Source: Crocinitomicaceae bacterium (GTDB lineage: Bacteria > Bacteroidota > Bacteroidia > Flavobacteriales_D > Crocinitomicaceae). Taken from it: a stretch of 64,000 nt of DNA. Shown here one piece after another: positions 34,727 to 40,006 of this stretch (the first letter of the stretch is position 1; each line of letters begins with the position of its first letter). Where the stretch lies: NCBI GenBank assembly GCA_021325675.1, contig JAJTCM010000003.1, positions 248,001 through 312,000 of the forward strand, written 5' to 3'. Both the position numbers and the translations under genes were made by a program. A model generated the notes under the pieces. The model was given only the letters and a program-made list of their open reading frames with translations. It ran no database searches and was not told where the DNA came from.

Positions 34727-34829
34727 AGCTGTATATTTTCACTTAACCACGCAAATTTACGGTTTTTTTTTCACATGAAAACCATATTGTTCATCAAACA
34801 AATTTATTTTTGCATTGTTGTTATTGCTA

Positions 34830-35711
34830 ATGGGAGTTTACAAAATCAAGGACTTGGAGAATCTAACCGGGATTAAAGCCCATACGATCCGTATTTGGGA
34901 AAAACGCTATGGAATCCTGAAGCCCGGGCGCACTGAAACCCAGATCCGGACATACGACGATACCGAGCTTAATATCCTGCTGAATGTTTCTTTACTGAAC
35001 AAACATGGCCTGAAGATTTCGAAAATCGCCCATCTTTCTTACCCTGAAATACAGGTGCTTGTACGCAAACAGCTCGACGCCGACGCTGAAGCGGGTTTCC
35101 ATGAGAACCTCCTGCTCGCCCTGCTCAACCTGGACGAAAACCTCTTCGGGCAGACTTTTGATAAATTACAGCAGGAAACCGGGCTCGAAAAACTGTTCGC
35201 TGAGCACCTCCTCCCCTTCCTGGAACGAATCGGCGTCATGTGGCAGGTTAATTCCATCACCCCGGCGCAGGAACATTTTATGTCGAACCTGGTCCGCCAG
35301 AAACTGCTCGTTGAAATCAATAAACTGGAGAGCAGCGCTTCCCGCTCAAGCGTGATCCTTTACCTGCCGGAGCATGAAATGCATGAGATAGGCTTGCTGT
35401 TTTACCATTATTTCCTGAAAAAGGCCGGGCTAAAAACTTATTACCTGGGCCAGATGCTGCCTTTGGATGCCCTTTTATATTCCATTCAAAAAATCAAGCC
35501 GCGTGCATTGGTCACGTCCTGGGTAACACACACCGGAGCAGAGAACCCCGCTGCTTATTTTAAAGAGCTTGGCGAAAATACCGGCATTCCTGTTTTTGGC
35601 GGAGGAAACCTGCTGAAAACGAATTATCAGTCCTTACAAAAACACCTGCACCTCATCGATTCCCTGAAAGATTTAGAACTTCTCGTTGCCCGCTGTCAAT
35701 CGATGCAGTAA
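34830..35711 (+). CDS. MerR-family regulator with cobalamin-binding domain (CarH/LitR-like)
   Basis: 293 residues from ATG 34830 (MGVYKIKDLENLTGIKAHTIRIWEKRYG is a MerR winged helix, in pieces); the frame opens five codons earlier. The C-terminal part has the helical B12-cap with W-x9-EH (Trp138, Glu148, His149) and a Rossmann-type B12 domain with E-x-H-x-x-G (Glu183, His185, Gly188 in EMHEIG), the set of residues known from CarH/CarA. In CarH, adenosylcobalamin holds a DNA-bound tetramer in the dark and light breaks it, derepressing carotenoid genes. No carotenoid or photolyase gene is next to it here; the divergent lipoprotein gene (34139) and the sigma-factor operon 168 bp downstream are the neighbours. 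A TATTTTTG box is at 34805-34812. Confidence 0.88.
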   Translation: MGVYKIKDLENLTGIKAHTIRIWEKRYGILKPGRTETQIRTYDDTELNILLNVSLLNKHGLKISKIAHLSYPEIQVLVRKQLDADAEAGFHENLLLALLNLDENLFGQTFDKLQQETGLEKLFAEHLLPFLERIGVMWQVNSITPAQEHFMSNLVRQKLLVEINKLESSASRSSVILYLPEHEMHEIGLLFYHYFLKKAGLKTYYLGQMLPLDALLYSIQKIKPRALVTSWVTHTGAENPAAYFKELGENTGIPVFGGGNLLKTNYQSLQKHLHLIDSLKDLELLVARCQSMQ

Positions 35712-35878
35712 ACTATTTCCCGCAAAAATCAAAGAAATTTCAACTTTTCACCAACCTTTTAGTGCCGGCCTGCGTTTTTGATTTAAATGTATGAACAAAG
35801 AAATAAAGTGTAACTGGTAAACCACTAATAAAGCGTATCTTGCAAATAATTTCGATACATAGTAAATACGGACCGAAA

Positions 35879-36454
35879 ATGCACATTGATTTAGACTTAT
35901 TGCAAAATTGTATAAACAATGATCGCAGGGCACAAAAAAAGCTTTATGAGCTGTGTTACCGTATTTTTATGCCCCTTTGCATGCGTTACAACAGGAATGA
36001 AGAGGATGCGCGCTTTGCGTTTAATAACTCTTACATGAAAATCCTGGCGGGACTTGAGAATGTGAACTTAAAAGAGATCATATTCTTCCCCTGGGCCAAA
36101 CGAATTGTAACAAATGCCTTAATCGATGAGTACAGAAAGCAAAAGTTACACCAGGCGCACTTTATTAACAAAGAAACCGACCGGGAATTAGAATTGCATT
36201 CAGCGAATTCAAACAACGAGGCGGAAAGTAACTTCGGATACGCCGCCCTGCTGAAAATGATTAGCGAAATCCCTGAAATGCACGCCCTCGTTTTCAAACT
36301 ATATGTCATGGAGGACATGAGCCACAAAGAAATAGCCGAACAGCTGGGTATTTCCGAAGGCACATCCAAATGGCATTTATCGATCGCACGCAAAATGCTG
36401 CGGGAGAAACTGGAAAAAATAGATGCGTTAACTGATAAAAAAATGGTAATATGA
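35879..36454 (+). CDS. ECF-type RNA polymerase sigma factor
   Basis: 191 residues from ATG 35879 (MHIDLDLLQNCINNDRRAQKKLY), with the frame opening 13 codons earlier at TTG. Region 2 (about 15-85, RIFMPLCMRYNRNEEDARFAFNNSYMKIL, in pieces, and FFPWAKRIVTNALIDEYRK) and region 4 with a helix-turn-helix (EIPEMHALVFKLYVMEDMSH, then KEIAEQLGISEGTSKWHLS) give the two-domain ECF layout. It overlaps the next gene by 4 bp (ATGA), whose product has a short cytoplasmic N-terminus that could bind the sigma factor. It should direct RNA polymerase to a small regulon in response to an envelope signal. Confidence 0.92.
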   Translation: MHIDLDLLQNCINNDRRAQKKLYELCYRIFMPLCMRYNRNEEDARFAFNNSYMKILAGLENVNLKEIIFFPWAKRIVTNALIDEYRKQKLHQAHFINKETDRELELHSANSNNEAESNFGYAALLKMISEIPEMHALVFKLYVMEDMSHKEIAEQLGISEGTSKWHLSIARKMLREKLEKIDALTDKKMVI

Positions 36455-37800
36455 GCTGGACGGACGATGAAATTGATGCACTTTTCAAAGAAATCCCTAC
36501 GCAACATAAACCTTCACCTTTCCAAGACTCATTCTTTGATGAGATTGAGCATTTATTGCCTAAAAAGAGGAGAAAAACAGGTTTATTCTGGGTATTGGGC
36601 TCTGCGCTCGTTGCCCTGATGACGACTTTTATATACAGCGACGCTTTACCGGGCAAAACACAACTTGCTGACAGCAAGCTAACGGGCACCCTTAACCCGG
36701 GGCAAAAACTGACCGCTTCGTTGAATACATTAAGCCCGCTGAATGAGAATGAGAATCAAAATGAGACCGCAGGCAGCACCGCAGGTAAACAGGGTGCGGA
36801 TGCCGGTCAGAATGAATTTACTTACACCAAACAAACCCGCAAGGCAAACAAACCGGCAACAGCAAATACAAACAATACACAGCCGGTAAGCAGATCTTCA
36901 CAGCAAAGCTCCGGTGAACAACCGGCAGAAGCAACGGACGATCTTTCTTTGAGCGGCTCACATGAAACTGCAGCTTTGGAAAGCAGGAACGAAGATGAGG
37001 GCGTGCATGTAAATCCGGACGAGTCCAGTAAGCTTTCAGAAGAAAATGAAGGTGTAAACGGGAGAACTGATGACACTCAGCAAAGACCGGAATTTATTTC
37101 ACCTCTGATTACTTCCCGCCTGAGCTTGCTTGCCCCGCAATATTTCAATACCGACAGCGAAAAACAAATCCAGGCGCTTTATTTGCCGATGCTGCACAGG
37201 AAACATTTCCTGACAGTTGAAGCGGGCGCAGGCTTTACCGAGAATTTCATCAAAATGGAGAATTCTTCTCAAAGACCGATGCCAACAGCCAGCCTGGGCT
37301 TGTCCTATCAATACCGTACGAAAGGCCTGTACTACTCAGCTGGTTTCAACTGGATGAATTTCAGTCCGAACAGCCTTAACCTGACCCGCGAATCCAAAGT
37401 TTACGGTTTCGAAGCTAACCAGTACAGCCAAAACATCGATTACAAATGGATTACTATGATGGAAATGCCGCTCACCGTTGGAAAACGTTTCCGGAACAGC
37501 GGTGTCAGCCTGGGAATTTCTCCGTCCCTCGTCCTTGGCAGCATGGTTGACTTCACCAAAACACAAAACGGGAACGTGACCGAAAGATCAACTATTTACG
37601 GTAACATGCTCGGCCTGAAGCAATATGCGGCTTCCGTTAACATCGCCTACGATTTACAAATTGCACGCAACCTGGACTTCGGCGTGAAAATTTCCAATAT
37701 GCTGCTTAACCCGCTGGATGAGACGCGTTTCATCGGCCAGCTCAACAAAAATCCTTTCCAGGCACAGGTAACACTTAAAAAACACTTCAGAATCAAATGA
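36451..37800 (+). CDS. Putative dual-membrane-spanning anti-sigma factor with outer-membrane beta-barrel
   Basis: 449 residues in three parts. Residues 1-43 are cytoplasmic (MSWTDDEIDALFKEIPTQ, ending PKKRRK); 44-62 form one membrane helix (GLFWVLGSALVALMTTFIY); 63-about 245 are an unstructured linker rich in N/Q/S/T/E with no hydrophobic segment; 252-449 look like an 8-strand outer-membrane barrel (KHFLTVEAGAGF, ASLGLSYQYRTKG, LYYSAGFNWMNFS, SLGISPSLVLGSM, ending QAQVTLKKHFRIK). The gene starts inside the sigma factor gene (ATGA). This domain order matches the Dma-type anti-sigma factors reported in Bacteroides, in which one chain spans inner membrane, periplasm and outer membrane. The role as anti-sigma factor is inferred from gene order and topology. 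Confidence 0.8.
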   Translation: MSWTDDEIDALFKEIPTQHKPSPFQDSFFDEIEHLLPKKRRKTGLFWVLGSALVALMTTFIYSDALPGKTQLADSKLTGTLNPGQKLTASLNTLSPLNENENQNETAGSTAGKQGADAGQNEFTYTKQTRKANKPATANTNNTQPVSRSSQQSSGEQPAEATDDLSLSGSHETAALESRNEDEGVHVNPDESSKLSEENEGVNGRTDDTQQRPEFISPLITSRLSLLAPQYFNTDSEKQIQALYLPMLHRKHFLTVEAGAGFTENFIKMENSSQRPMPTASLGLSYQYRTKGLYYSAGFNWMNFSPNSLNLTRESKVYGFEANQYSQNIDYKWITMMEMPLTVGKRFRNSGVSLGISPSLVLGSMVDFTKTQNGNVTERSTIYGNMLGLKQYAASVNIAYDLQIARNLDFGVKISNMLLNPLDETRFIGQLNKNPFQAQVTLKKHFRIK

Positions 37801-38861
37801 TGAAACTTAAGCACATATCGTATTTACTGTTAGCGGGTATTTTATTCACTGCCTGCAAGAAAAAGATTGTCGAAATCCCCGAATCCAACTCCCCTGTTTT
37901 CGTAACCACAGGGCAGCTCGGGGAAGACAACATCAGTATCGTTGCCGGCGACGATGACGCCCAGTTCAGCAACAGCATTTCTACAATTAACGGCGTCAGC
38001 TATTACAGCGGAACGCTGATCCAGGGCTCTACGGAAATTGAGCTCGGCATGTACAAAGGCGATAACGAGCTTCCGCAGCTGAACATCGACAACATCACGA
38101 GCCTGAGCAGCATGGGCTTTGCTTCTTTACCGCTTGGGCCTTTATTCGAAGTAAAACGCGAAAATTTCGAGAACAACAGCAACATCAAGGAAATCAAATG
38201 GTATGTAGACGATGTGTACGCCGGAACGAACTCCGTTAAAATTTTTGAGCCGGGCAAATACCGCGTGTGTGCCAAAATCCTCTATGCCAACAAATATGAA
38301 TCCGAAGTATGCAACGATATTATTGTCGGCTACACCCGCAGCAACGAGCTTGAGCTGGATTTTTCGCTTGAAGGCAACAACCAATTCACCTCCTGGATCG
38401 AATCCACGGGAACCGTTTCGCATGTTAAATGGTACCTCAACGAACAGCTGATCTCGGAAGAAACAAGCCTGTCAACCGTTTTACCGGCTACTTTCAATAA
38501 GCTGAAGGCCGAAGTCACTTTTGCCGATGGTTCTAAGCGGGTCCGGAGCGTAATGGTGGACGGAACACATTCAGATTGTTCTATCGAAGATTTTGCCCGC
38601 CAGGAACAAAACGATAACCTGTCCTGGGATTATAAGCTGCGCCTGAATATCAAGTATGAGGGCAACGAATATTCTTCCATGGATGTTGACAACAGCGAAA
38701 GCTCCCTGAAAATCAGCTCTATTGATTATTTTGGGATCGACAGCAAAGGAAACCCGGTTTACCTGGTGAAAGGCCTTTTGAAATCCAAAGTGAAATCCAA
38801 AGCAACCAACGACATCCTGGATGTAAATTTAAACATCTCCTGGGGTCTCGGTTTAAAATAA
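37797..38861 (+). CDS. Lipoprotein of the sigma-factor operon, function unknown
   Basis: 354 residues (or 353 from the second ATG). MMKLKHISYLLLAGILFTACKKK is a lipoprotein signal (Cys20), and the acidic-free KKK after Cys is unusual for surface export signals. The protein is beta-rich, with two PKD/Ig-like sections (IKEIKWYVDDVYAGT..GKYRVCAKILYANK and VSHVKWYLNEQLIS..KLKAEVTFADGSK) that resemble each other, so an internal duplication is likely. It overlaps the barrel-protein gene by 4 bp (ATGA), so sigma factor, anti-sigma-like protein and lipoprotein form one unit. A periplasmic or outer-membrane partner that loads or reads the barrel is a reasonable guess. Confidence 0.75.
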   Translation: MMKLKHISYLLLAGILFTACKKKIVEIPESNSPVFVTTGQLGEDNISIVAGDDDAQFSNSISTINGVSYYSGTLIQGSTEIELGMYKGDNELPQLNIDNITSLSSMGFASLPLGPLFEVKRENFENNSNIKEIKWYVDDVYAGTNSVKIFEPGKYRVCAKILYANKYESEVCNDIIVGYTRSNELELDFSLEGNNQFTSWIESTGTVSHVKWYLNEQLISEETSLSTVLPATFNKLKAEVTFADGSKRVRSVMVDGTHSDCSIEDFARQEQNDNLSWDYKLRLNIKYEGNEYSSMDVDNSESSLKISSIDYFGIDSKGNPVYLVKGLLKSKVKSKATNDILDVNLNISWGLGLK

Positions 38862-38893: not shown

Positions 38894-40006
38894 ATGAAAA
38901 AATTATTACTCTCTCTTACTGTATTTGTCTCATTAAGCCTTCAGGCACAAAACCCCATTACAATTACAACGGGTGATCTTCCTTCAATCGGGACCGGTTT
39001 CATTAATATCCAGGAACTGAACCTGCAGGGGATTTATCCGGGTGATCCGGGAGCTAACCAGGCTTACGATATTTCGGGTTTTCAAAACAGCGGCGAAGAT
39101 TCGATTTTCTTCCTCGACCCGGCACAAACGATGTACGCAGACGAGTTTGAAAATGCTACCATTACCCGTTACCTCGCAACAGATACAAGCTATGCTTTTA
39201 TGATCGAAGGCGAAACCAAAGTGGAAATTGAAGGACTTGTTATGAATGTTCCCGGAATTGCCGAGAAAGCAGTAGCAAAAGCTTCAGATCCGCTTACGCA
39301 GTTTACTTTCCCGATGACTTACGAGACAGCTTTCGATGACCTGGCAGCTTTCAGTACCAACAGCGTTTATTTCCACCAGGTAATTTCAGAGGACCCGTAT
39401 ACTTATTTTGATTCGGCCCGCCTGAACATCACCTACGACCGCAGCTCTGTAGTTGACGGCTGGGGAACGCTCGCAACGCCTTTCGGCACAACTTTCAGCG
39501 TATTGCGTCAAAGAGTAGAAGATATCACAGTTTACGCACCTGAGTTTTATCTCTTTTATGTAGACACACTTTTTGGCACTCCTGTAACCATTCCCCTTGG
39601 ATGGCAAACTATCCCGGGTGCAGAAATGAACGACACCACAACGACTTACTATTACCTCGCGAATACGGATTCCGGCAACCCGCTGATCCTGGCTGAGCTC
39701 CAGGAAAACACAAGCGGTTCCATCATCAGCGCACAATATGCCAAACTGCCGATGGCGGCCATTGATGAACTGAGTCTTTCCAATGTTTTTGTATTCCCTA
39801 ATCCGGCAGCAGATTACGTAGAGCTTAAATCACCGGTTCGCCTGAACAGTGTACGCATGCTCGGAAGCGACGGAAAAACAGTTTTCACAACTGAAGTGAA
39901 CAACAACACAGCAACAATTGACCTTACGGCTCTCGCCACAGGAATTTATACCCTGATCATTGATACAGAAAAGGGACAAGAAATTAAACGCGTAAGCAAA
40001 TTATAA
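38894..40006 (+). CDS. Secreted protein with T9SS type A sorting domain
   Basis: 370 residues with signal peptide [19 protein letters not shown]. The body (20-290) is a beta-rich extracellular domain of unknown family with many aromatic and acidic residues ([19 protein letters not shown], in part; YEFYLF absent, but [14 protein letters not shown] present). Residues about 298-370 are the sorting domain: [41 protein letters not shown] and IKRVSKL. It is 32 bp after the lipoprotein of the sigma-factor operon and could be a member of its regulon, but a -7 box in the gap suggests separate transcription. Followed by a strong terminator. Confidence 0.82.

Follow-up and report, generated by a model that had tools for sequence, protein, structure and literature searches.

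Anti-sigma factors that are predicted to reach from the cytoplasm to the outer membrane have been described in the Bacteroidales. An anti-sigma factor with a predicted C-terminal outer-membrane barrel was reported from Phocaeicola in 2022 (PMC9308784). Reo is described as spanning all five compartments (PMC13114119), and the order of domains is the same in the Dma family of B. thetaiotaomicron (PMC13088901). These anti-sigma factors are from gut species, and they affect NigD lipoproteins, polysaccharide loci and vesiculation. NigD is required for the effect of Dma1 (PMC13088901). When the anti-sigma factor of the Bacteroides counterpart is lost, the regulon is activated, and ecfO-reo is induced by the toxin BcpT or by Bd-A, which is read as bacteroidetocin A, an inhibitor of BamA (PMC9308784, PMC13114119). 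In Porphyromonas gingivalis, PorA, a protein with a C-terminal domain (CTD) of the type IX secretion system (T9SS), influences the sigma factor SigP via a two-component system (PMC7712824). Here we describe an operon from a Crocinitomicaceae bacterium. It lies in a 64,000-nucleotide stretch of contig JAJTCM010000003.1, and this whole stretch is referred to below as the window. By its predicted layout, the anti-sigma factor of the operon is a Crocinitomicaceae counterpart of the Dma/Reo proteins of Bacteroides. The layout is known, and the sequences hint faintly at homology.

The genome of the window contained 3.57 Mb in 12 contigs. The operon quite probably encodes an extracytoplasmic function (ECF) sigma factor that is held by a two-membrane, Dma/Reo-like anti-sigma factor, is freed on disturbance of the outer membrane, and drives its own operon and T9SS cargo. 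The architecture, the gene order and the promoter were established by computation. The following features were assigned (lengths in amino acids, aa).

35751..35776, plus strand: ECF-type promoter CCAACC-N16-CGTT, 102 bp ahead of the sigma ATG, by pattern match.
35879..36454, plus strand: ECF sigma factor, 191 aa, with PF08281 (E 1e-11) and TIGR02937 above cut-off.
36451..37800, plus strand: Dma-like anti-sigma factor, 449 aa, from the open reading frame (ORF), alignments and an AlphaFold2 model.
36451..36579, plus strand: anti-sigma residues 1-43, putative sigma-binding segment with the consensus DxxIDxLF...YWxExExxL, conserved in alignments A1 and A4 and repeated in tandem in some relatives.
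36586..36636, plus strand: anti-sigma residues 46-62, predicted single inner-membrane helix with KKRRK before it, from AlphaFold2 and the charge before the helix.
36637..37203, plus strand: anti-sigma residues 63-251, predicted disordered periplasmic tether, from low model confidence and homologous linker lengths.
37204..37791, plus strand: anti-sigma residues 252-447, predicted outer-membrane beta-barrel, from AlphaFold2, fold matches and OMP_b-brl in aligned relatives.
37797..38861, plus strand: lipoprotein, 354 aa, with Cys20 invariant, perhaps Ig-like (PF17957 in few relatives).
38894..40006, plus strand: T9SS type A cargo protein, 370 aa, from PF18962 and the C-terminal domain of its model.

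A first-pass annotation made from the sequence alone had placed the start of the anti-sigma gene within the sigma gene, and the ORF at 36451-37800 bears this out. Its ATG overlaps the sigma stop codon as ATGA, and the lipoprotein gene overlaps the anti-sigma gene in the same way. The sigma gene probably starts at the ATG at 35879 (191 aa) and not at the TTG that the ORF list gives (35840), since M1 is invariant in 20 aligned sigma factors (alignment A2). Cys20 of the lipoprotein is invariant in 42 aligned proteins, and 3 of the 42 match PF17957 (bacterial Ig). The cargo protein matches PF18962 with an E value of 2.6e-10 (40.9 bits vs a cut-off of 27). It also matches the TIGR04183 sorting domain with 35.9 bits vs a cut-off of 23, which makes it a T9SS type A protein. 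The C-terminal domain of its model resembles the solved T9SS CTDs 8qb1 and 8glk, and the fold outside this domain gave no convincing structural match.

The 449-aa chain appears to consist of an inner-membrane helix, a disordered tether and an OmpA/NspA-like outer-membrane barrel. The AlphaFold2 model used alignment A4, which contained the window protein and 46 homologues. It had a mean pLDDT (the predicted local confidence) of 72.1 over the whole chain and a pTM (the predicted global score) of 0.53. N-terminal helices were placed at residues 5-13, 15-18 and 26-35, with block means of 66-77 over residues 1-60. The single helix, which the first-pass annotation had put at 44-62, was placed at 46-62, ahead of the disordered stretch. 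The linker of about 180 residues that had been proposed corresponds to a low-confidence stretch at about 66-250, with pLDDT block means of 41-60 over residues 61-250. Structure prediction had been named beforehand as the test that could refute the C-terminal barrel. It gave a confident barrel of beta strands at 252-447, an all-beta region with block means of 87-98, where the model is at its most confident. The top nine rows of the Foldseek search with residues 249-448 were OmpA, NspA, Tsx, a Legionella porin and OmpX (OmpA 9fzc, E 2.8e-7). VIA-align of the same residues gave Z 16.5 for Legionella porin 9nh2 and for the designed transmembrane barrel 6x9z, 16.3 for OmpA 9fzc over 157 residues and 16.2 for NspA 1p4t over 154 residues, and these top matches are tied within 1 Z unit. 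A sequence search of PDB with A4 returned four matches (best E 0.078); none extends to the barrel, and they were judged to be chance.

The linker between helix and barrel measured 113-249 residues, with a median of 162, in 72 homologues. These are from the 80 named homologues described below; seven truncated proteins were excluded beforehand, and one had no barrel match. The linker sequence is not conserved in A4, and its length is bounded all the same, which is what a tether that crosses the periplasm would need. The 12 residues ahead of the helix have a net charge of 0 to +5 in the same 72 proteins, and these neutral-to-positive residues are consistent with a cytoplasmic N-terminus.

The N-terminal segment is repeated in some relatives. 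A profile of the first 38 residues was found in more than one copy in 25/80 anti-sigma proteins, and several of these copies are weak. The clearest repeats have three copies (L096, L111) or four copies (L114, L116, L118, L121), and all lie before the helix. Only the N-terminal segment is repeated, which fits a sigma-docking unit, and the repeats may perhaps hold several sigma molecules. The part before the helix reaches about 160 residues in the longest proteins of L142-L154 and L156 (mostly titled Crocinitomix), and it contains several weak repeats.

The operon is conserved among relatives. The window protein was matched at E <= 0.01 in 30 of 99 related genomes, its own genome counted. When named genomes were scanned with the sigma alignment, 528 relatives were confirmed, and the best 80 loci were kept, so that the counts below describe the nearest relatives and are not a census. 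Matches to A1 in 236/396 genomes of the class include partial ones and are not a prevalence figure. By their titles, most of the records that contain the nearest sigma factors are from Crocinitomicaceae or Flavobacteriales, e.g., Fluviicola, Brumimicrobium, Lishizhenia and Crocinitomix. The same operon is found in records titled Glaciecola amylolytica (L127), Chryseobacterium gleum (L086) and Chitinophaga pinensis (L093), and these names are probably wrong. A Dma-like match lies downstream of the sigma gene in 80/80 named loci (E <= 1e-3). The 4-bp overlap of sigma and anti-sigma genes is present in 56/80, with the ATG closest to the sigma stop used as the anti-sigma start. The lipoprotein gene is present in 64/80 loci, and six of the 16 loci without it are cut short by the edge of the contig. 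In 59/80 loci a complete fourth ORF follows, which encodes 340-385 residues. The fourth-protein alignment contained 58 of the named proteins and that of the window (one, L084, was dropped), and all 59 carry the PF18962 T9SS sorting domain. In the other 21 loci the contig ends, the ORF is partial or another gene takes its place; in L155, L157, L158 and L160 this other gene encodes a protein of 555-561 aa. Mean column identity was 45% for the fourth protein vs 24% for the anti-sigma factor. The lipoprotein at 37797 and the T9SS cargo at 38894, whose coupling to the anti-sigma factor was tentatively proposed in the first-pass annotation, are both conserved gene neighbors.

The promoter is conserved with the operon. 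The pattern CCAAC-N17-CGTT is found in the stretch of at most 400 bp that precedes the sigma gene in 71/81 operons (the window included), once in each. It has a strand bias in the 80 named loci, with 79 plus-strand matches vs 5 on the minus strand. The copy at 35751-35776 is the sole match in the 64 kb of the window, where 0.54 are expected. At least one match occurs in 41/100 shuffles, so the site in the window rests on its conserved position and not on its rarity.

An extended motif, CCAACC-HWW-N13-CGTT-H, was derived from the operon promoters only and was searched beyond the operon. The genome of the window contained five sites. All are outside ORFs of at least 120 aa, and all lie 67-155 bp ahead of an ATG-started ORF. 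The first two precede the operon itself (102 bp) and a conserved ECF sigma factor, for which PRK12513 is the best NCBIfam match, though under cut-off. The other three precede a gene for a 747-aa protein of the gingipain family (peptidase C25), a gene for a CotH-kinase protein and a group of genes for small secreted proteins. PF18962 is present in the C25 protein, in the CotH protein and in the second protein of this group.

Across 17 operon-bearing genomes, 67 extended sites were found outside the operon vs 38 for the reversed pattern. We examined 64 of the 67, with three sites of G040 left out, and a site was called intergenic when it was not within an ATG-started ORF of at least 120 aa on either strand. 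By this definition 50/64 sites are intergenic, and 42 have an ORF start 15-260 bp downstream. In G023, which has a divergent operon, 5/7 sites are intergenic. The reversed pattern in the same 17 genomes was intergenic in 4/38 cases and had a downstream ORF in 2 (p 1.9e-11 and 4.4e-10). Presence of the operon was decided by the A4 search, with E <= 1e-40 in 19 genomes; G025, which was classed as without the operon, has a partial A4 match at 5.7e-12. In ten genomes of the family without the operon, 16 extended sites were found vs 18 for the reversed pattern. Of these 16, the 13 in seven of the genomes were examined, and 0/13 are intergenic, vs the 50/64 above (Fisher p 1.1e-7). The intergenic promoter set therefore depends on the presence of the operon.

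The proteins downstream of these sites are often T9SS cargo. PF18962 is present in 17 of the 42 (binomial p 1.6e-12 vs 4.6%), and in 10 of the 42 the sequence is truncated where the fetched stretch stops. The background of about 4% is an estimate from at least 1,216 matches in 11 genomes (38.4 Mb together) and an assumed density of about 900 genes per Mb. L255, L262, L284 and L301 are the best matches among the 42 to a profile of the operon cargo, with E values of 1.6e-22 to 5.1e-20, and this profile includes the sorting domain. L317, from the divergent genome G023, also matches it (E 4e-32). All five carry PF18962. Seven of the 42 are sigma factors, which are six copies of one conserved ECF sigma factor and one of the primary type. 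The latter, L256 (G009), contains regions 1.2, 2, 3 and 4, and the extended promoter is 71 bp upstream of its gene.

These site counts suggest that the sigma factor of the operon reads CCAACC-N16-CGTT and that it would govern T9SS surface proteins. Several results weigh against this assignment. The unextended CCAACC-N16-CGTT occurs 12 times in the genome of the window vs 13 for the reversed control, which is no excess. The promoter pattern is missing ahead of 10/81 sigma genes. T9SS genes may have long free upstream regions, and the 4% estimate may understate the matched background. The second sigma gene has a site in only 6/19 operon-bearing genomes vs 0/10 that lack the operon (p 0.07).

The following sequence of events is proposed. 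At rest, residues 1-43 would keep the sigma factor at the inner membrane. The helix would anchor the chain there, an 8-stranded barrel would anchor it in the outer membrane, and the disordered tether would join the two. The barrel end would report the state of the outer membrane. The trigger may be a barrel that is not assembled or one that is altered by surface partners, and candidates for such partners are the lipoprotein and the T9SS cargo encoded in the operon. The disturbed chain would then be cut or degraded and the sigma factor freed. The freed sigma factor would transcribe its own operon from CCAACC-N16-CGTT and, in addition, a limited number of T9SS cargo genes; among these may be genes for relatives of the operon's own cargo. 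The second ECF sigma factor may also be a target in some species. Sigma binding, the location in two membranes, the proteolytic release, the signal and the reading of this promoter by this sigma factor are inferred. The induction of the Bacteroides relative by BcpT or Bd-A favors barrel assembly as the primary signal, and PorA-SigP in P. gingivalis is a precedent for a surface cargo that signals inward.

A narrower form of this proposal may hold, at somewhat less than even chances. It treats the protein as a pure sensor of outer-membrane assembly. Its own barrel would be the probe, failure of the barrel assembly machinery (BAM) would lead to degradation of the chain and release of the sigma factor, and the lipoprotein and cargo would be output and not input. 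Bd-A, as a BamA inhibitor that induces ecfO-reo in Phocaeicola (PMC13114119, PMC9308784), would fit such a sensor. Ten loci, of which six are titled Fluviicola, have enough sequence and appear to lack the lipoprotein; this also favors the narrower form, and it weighs against the broader one. The conserved coupling with one particular cargo family argues the other way, as does the finding that many predicted targets are secreted proteins. The broader proposal, in which surface partners may also act on the barrel, is retained.

The CCAACC-N16-CGTT promoters could belong to another sigma factor that also drives the operon, e.g., the PRK12513-like ECF sigma factor, and we consider this improbable. 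Related ECF sigma factors often share promoter elements, and the PRK12513-like gene itself has a site in 6/29 genomes. This sigma factor was present in 29/29 genomes tested, including the ten without the operon, yet none of those ten has a site before its gene. With one mismatch allowed, the site is present in 8/19 operon-bearing genomes vs 0/10 lacking ones (p 0.03). Where the operon is lacking, sites are absent before the second sigma gene and none is intergenic (0/13 in seven genomes), which argues that the set of sites follows the sigma factor of the operon and not the second one.

The layout has been described in Bacteroides and Phocaeicola, so a Flavobacteriales version of it is the right reading of the architecture. 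The likeness to Dma1/Dma2 and Das1/Das2 (PMC13088901) includes a sigma gene that adjoins the anti-sigma gene, an N-terminal segment followed by one transmembrane helix, a long tether and a barrel, a small operon, and the operon's own place among its targets (here predicted). Unlike in the Dma/Das systems (PMC13088901), the neighbors here are T9SS cargo and a lipoprotein of another family, where dma2 has a DUF4943 neighbor, and the targets are predicted to be T9SS cargo together with a second sigma factor. The sequence similarity is also weak. Six full-length anti-sigma factors that lie beside NigD genes, from other families and presumed to be Bacteroidales, served as stand-ins for Dma1/Dma2. 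OMP_b-brl families were above cut-off in 3/3 stand-ins scanned. Against them, hhalign gave whole-protein probabilities of 69.5 (A4) and 63.0 (A1). The N-terminus with the transmembrane helix gave 90.9, and the helix inflates such scores by composition. Without the helix the N-terminus gave 12.6, with a maximum of 3.5 in 100 column shuffles, and the barrel alone gave 10.7. Sigma factors of the Dma family belong to ECF21. In the sigma tree, the sigma factors beside barrel anti-sigmas were grouped at 90/87. This support fell to 67/83 after removal of one long row, and alternatives were not rejected. This weak link in sequence counts against the proposal above, and the tree does not decide the matter. 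Shared ancestry with the Bacteroidales anti-sigma factors is plausible, not proven. The first-pass annotation had proposed a Flavobacteriales Dma-type anti-sigma factor. Its architecture stands, and its homology to the Bacteroidales proteins is the part that the sequences back weakly. The observations behind that annotation held, and its interpretation was supported in part.

An ordinary Dma1/Dma2 counterpart that controls vesiculation, with incidental T9SS neighbors, is also an unlikely reading. The domain order is as in Dma2 (PMC13088901). NigD (PF12667), which is needed for the Dma1 effect, was found in 15/396 genomes of the class and in none of the window's family or order, nor in its own genome (E <= 1e-4). 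It was also found in 0/12 genomes guessed to be Bacteroides. T9SS cargo is present both in the operon and among the predicted targets, which counts further against incidental neighbors.

EcfO-Reo of Phocaeicola vulgatus and Bacteroides fragilis is alike in that its anti-sigma factor is predicted to reach from the cytoplasm to the outer membrane (PMC9308784, PMC13114119). It is induced by envelope-damaging agents, and its regulon contains surface lipoproteins. It differs in its NigD lipoproteins and its gut Bacteroidales hosts, and no T9SS link was seen in the available parts of PMC9308784 and PMC13114119. PorA-PorXY-SigP of Porphyromonas gingivalis is alike in that a surface T9SS CTD protein influences an ECF sigma factor that governs T9SS genes (PMC7712824). 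It differs in that it uses a two-component system and no barrel anti-sigma factor, and its targets are T9SS components (PMC7712824). The titles and abstract openings searched contained no Flavobacteriales or T9SS-linked barrel anti-sigma factor; the founding Dma paper (PNAS 2024) was outside this coverage. The available parts of PMC8999054 and PMC12045153 contained nothing on a barrel anti-sigma factor in Flavobacteriales or T9SS beyond a citation.

TonB-dependent signaling was considered and set aside. Cell-surface signaling of the FecI-FecR type passes an outer-membrane signal to an ECF sigma factor through an inner-membrane anti-sigma factor, with a separate TonB-dependent transducer. The system in the window differs in that a receptor-like barrel and the anti-sigma factor are predicted in one chain. 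Its sigma factor is also under the cut-off of TIGR02985 (72.3 bits vs 126.4), a family that we take to stand for FecIR-type sigma factors.

The weakest alternative, in which the anti-sigma factor sits in the inner membrane and its beta-domain stays in the periplasm without ever reaching the outer membrane, is very unlikely: it would accord with a window protein that has no Pfam match at all, OMP families included, and with the soluble barrel PsbO among the VIA-align matches (Z 10-11), two points against an outer-membrane barrel, but OMP_b-brl is matched by 10/47 aligned anti-sigma proteins (the window protein not among them), the best fold matches are transmembrane barrels at Z of about 16, and the linker is never below 113 residues in 72 homologues despite its unconserved sequence. 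A soluble barrel was also set aside. The NCBIfam scan of the anti-sigma factor gave two matches only, with E values of 0.05-0.09, far under cut-off.

A MerR/B12-binding regulator lies immediately upstream of the operon, at 34815-35711 of the window. Its best NCBIfam match is CarH, under cut-off. The genome of the window contains three more sigma and anti-sigma pairs, at L211:3063-4577, L212:2381-3625 (minus strand) and L213:3035-4267. Their anti-sigma factors have 411-505 aa and barrel-like C-terminal strands by eye, and none passes an OMP Pfam cut-off. A sigma-linked anti-sigma factor of 428 aa at L210:3331-4614 (minus strand) has weak matches to InlK_D3 and, at the C-terminus, to CHU_C of type IX secretion (E 0.0013, below cut-off). 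It adjoins the C25 peptidase gene that carries a CCAACC-N16-CGTT site. A T9SS-like tail on an anti-sigma factor would be odd. A further sigma-linked anti-sigma factor, at L164:1465-2438, has 170 aa and no barrel and is followed by a 149-aa secreted protein. This layout was noticed as a parallel to the cirYZ-spy arrangement in Phocaeicola (PMC13114119). A Spy-like reading of L164:1989-2435 had been made by eye, and Pfam gives no match.

The conservation of the operon with its T9SS cargo, the promoter, the predicted regulon, the tandem N-terminal segments and the bounds on linker length go beyond the first-pass annotation. A bolder and tentative reading is that the operon is a one-molecule, trans-envelope T9SS switch of the Crocinitomicaceae. 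Its barrel would read the cargo and the lipoprotein, its sigma factor would set cargo expression and start the second sigma factor, and in some lineages one tether, with three or four docking repeats in tandem, would store several sigma factors. With its conserved operon, its recognizable promoter and a regulon predicted to consist of T9SS cargo, a version from the Flavobacteriales would be a second model for how an outer-membrane event may reach RNA polymerase through one chain. The genome of the window contained 142 PF18962 matches. The system is a candidate answer to how cargo supply may be adjusted in bacteria that encode more than 100 T9SS-sorted proteins. It can be tested directly, by way of the promoter and because some related genomes have the operon and others naturally lack it.

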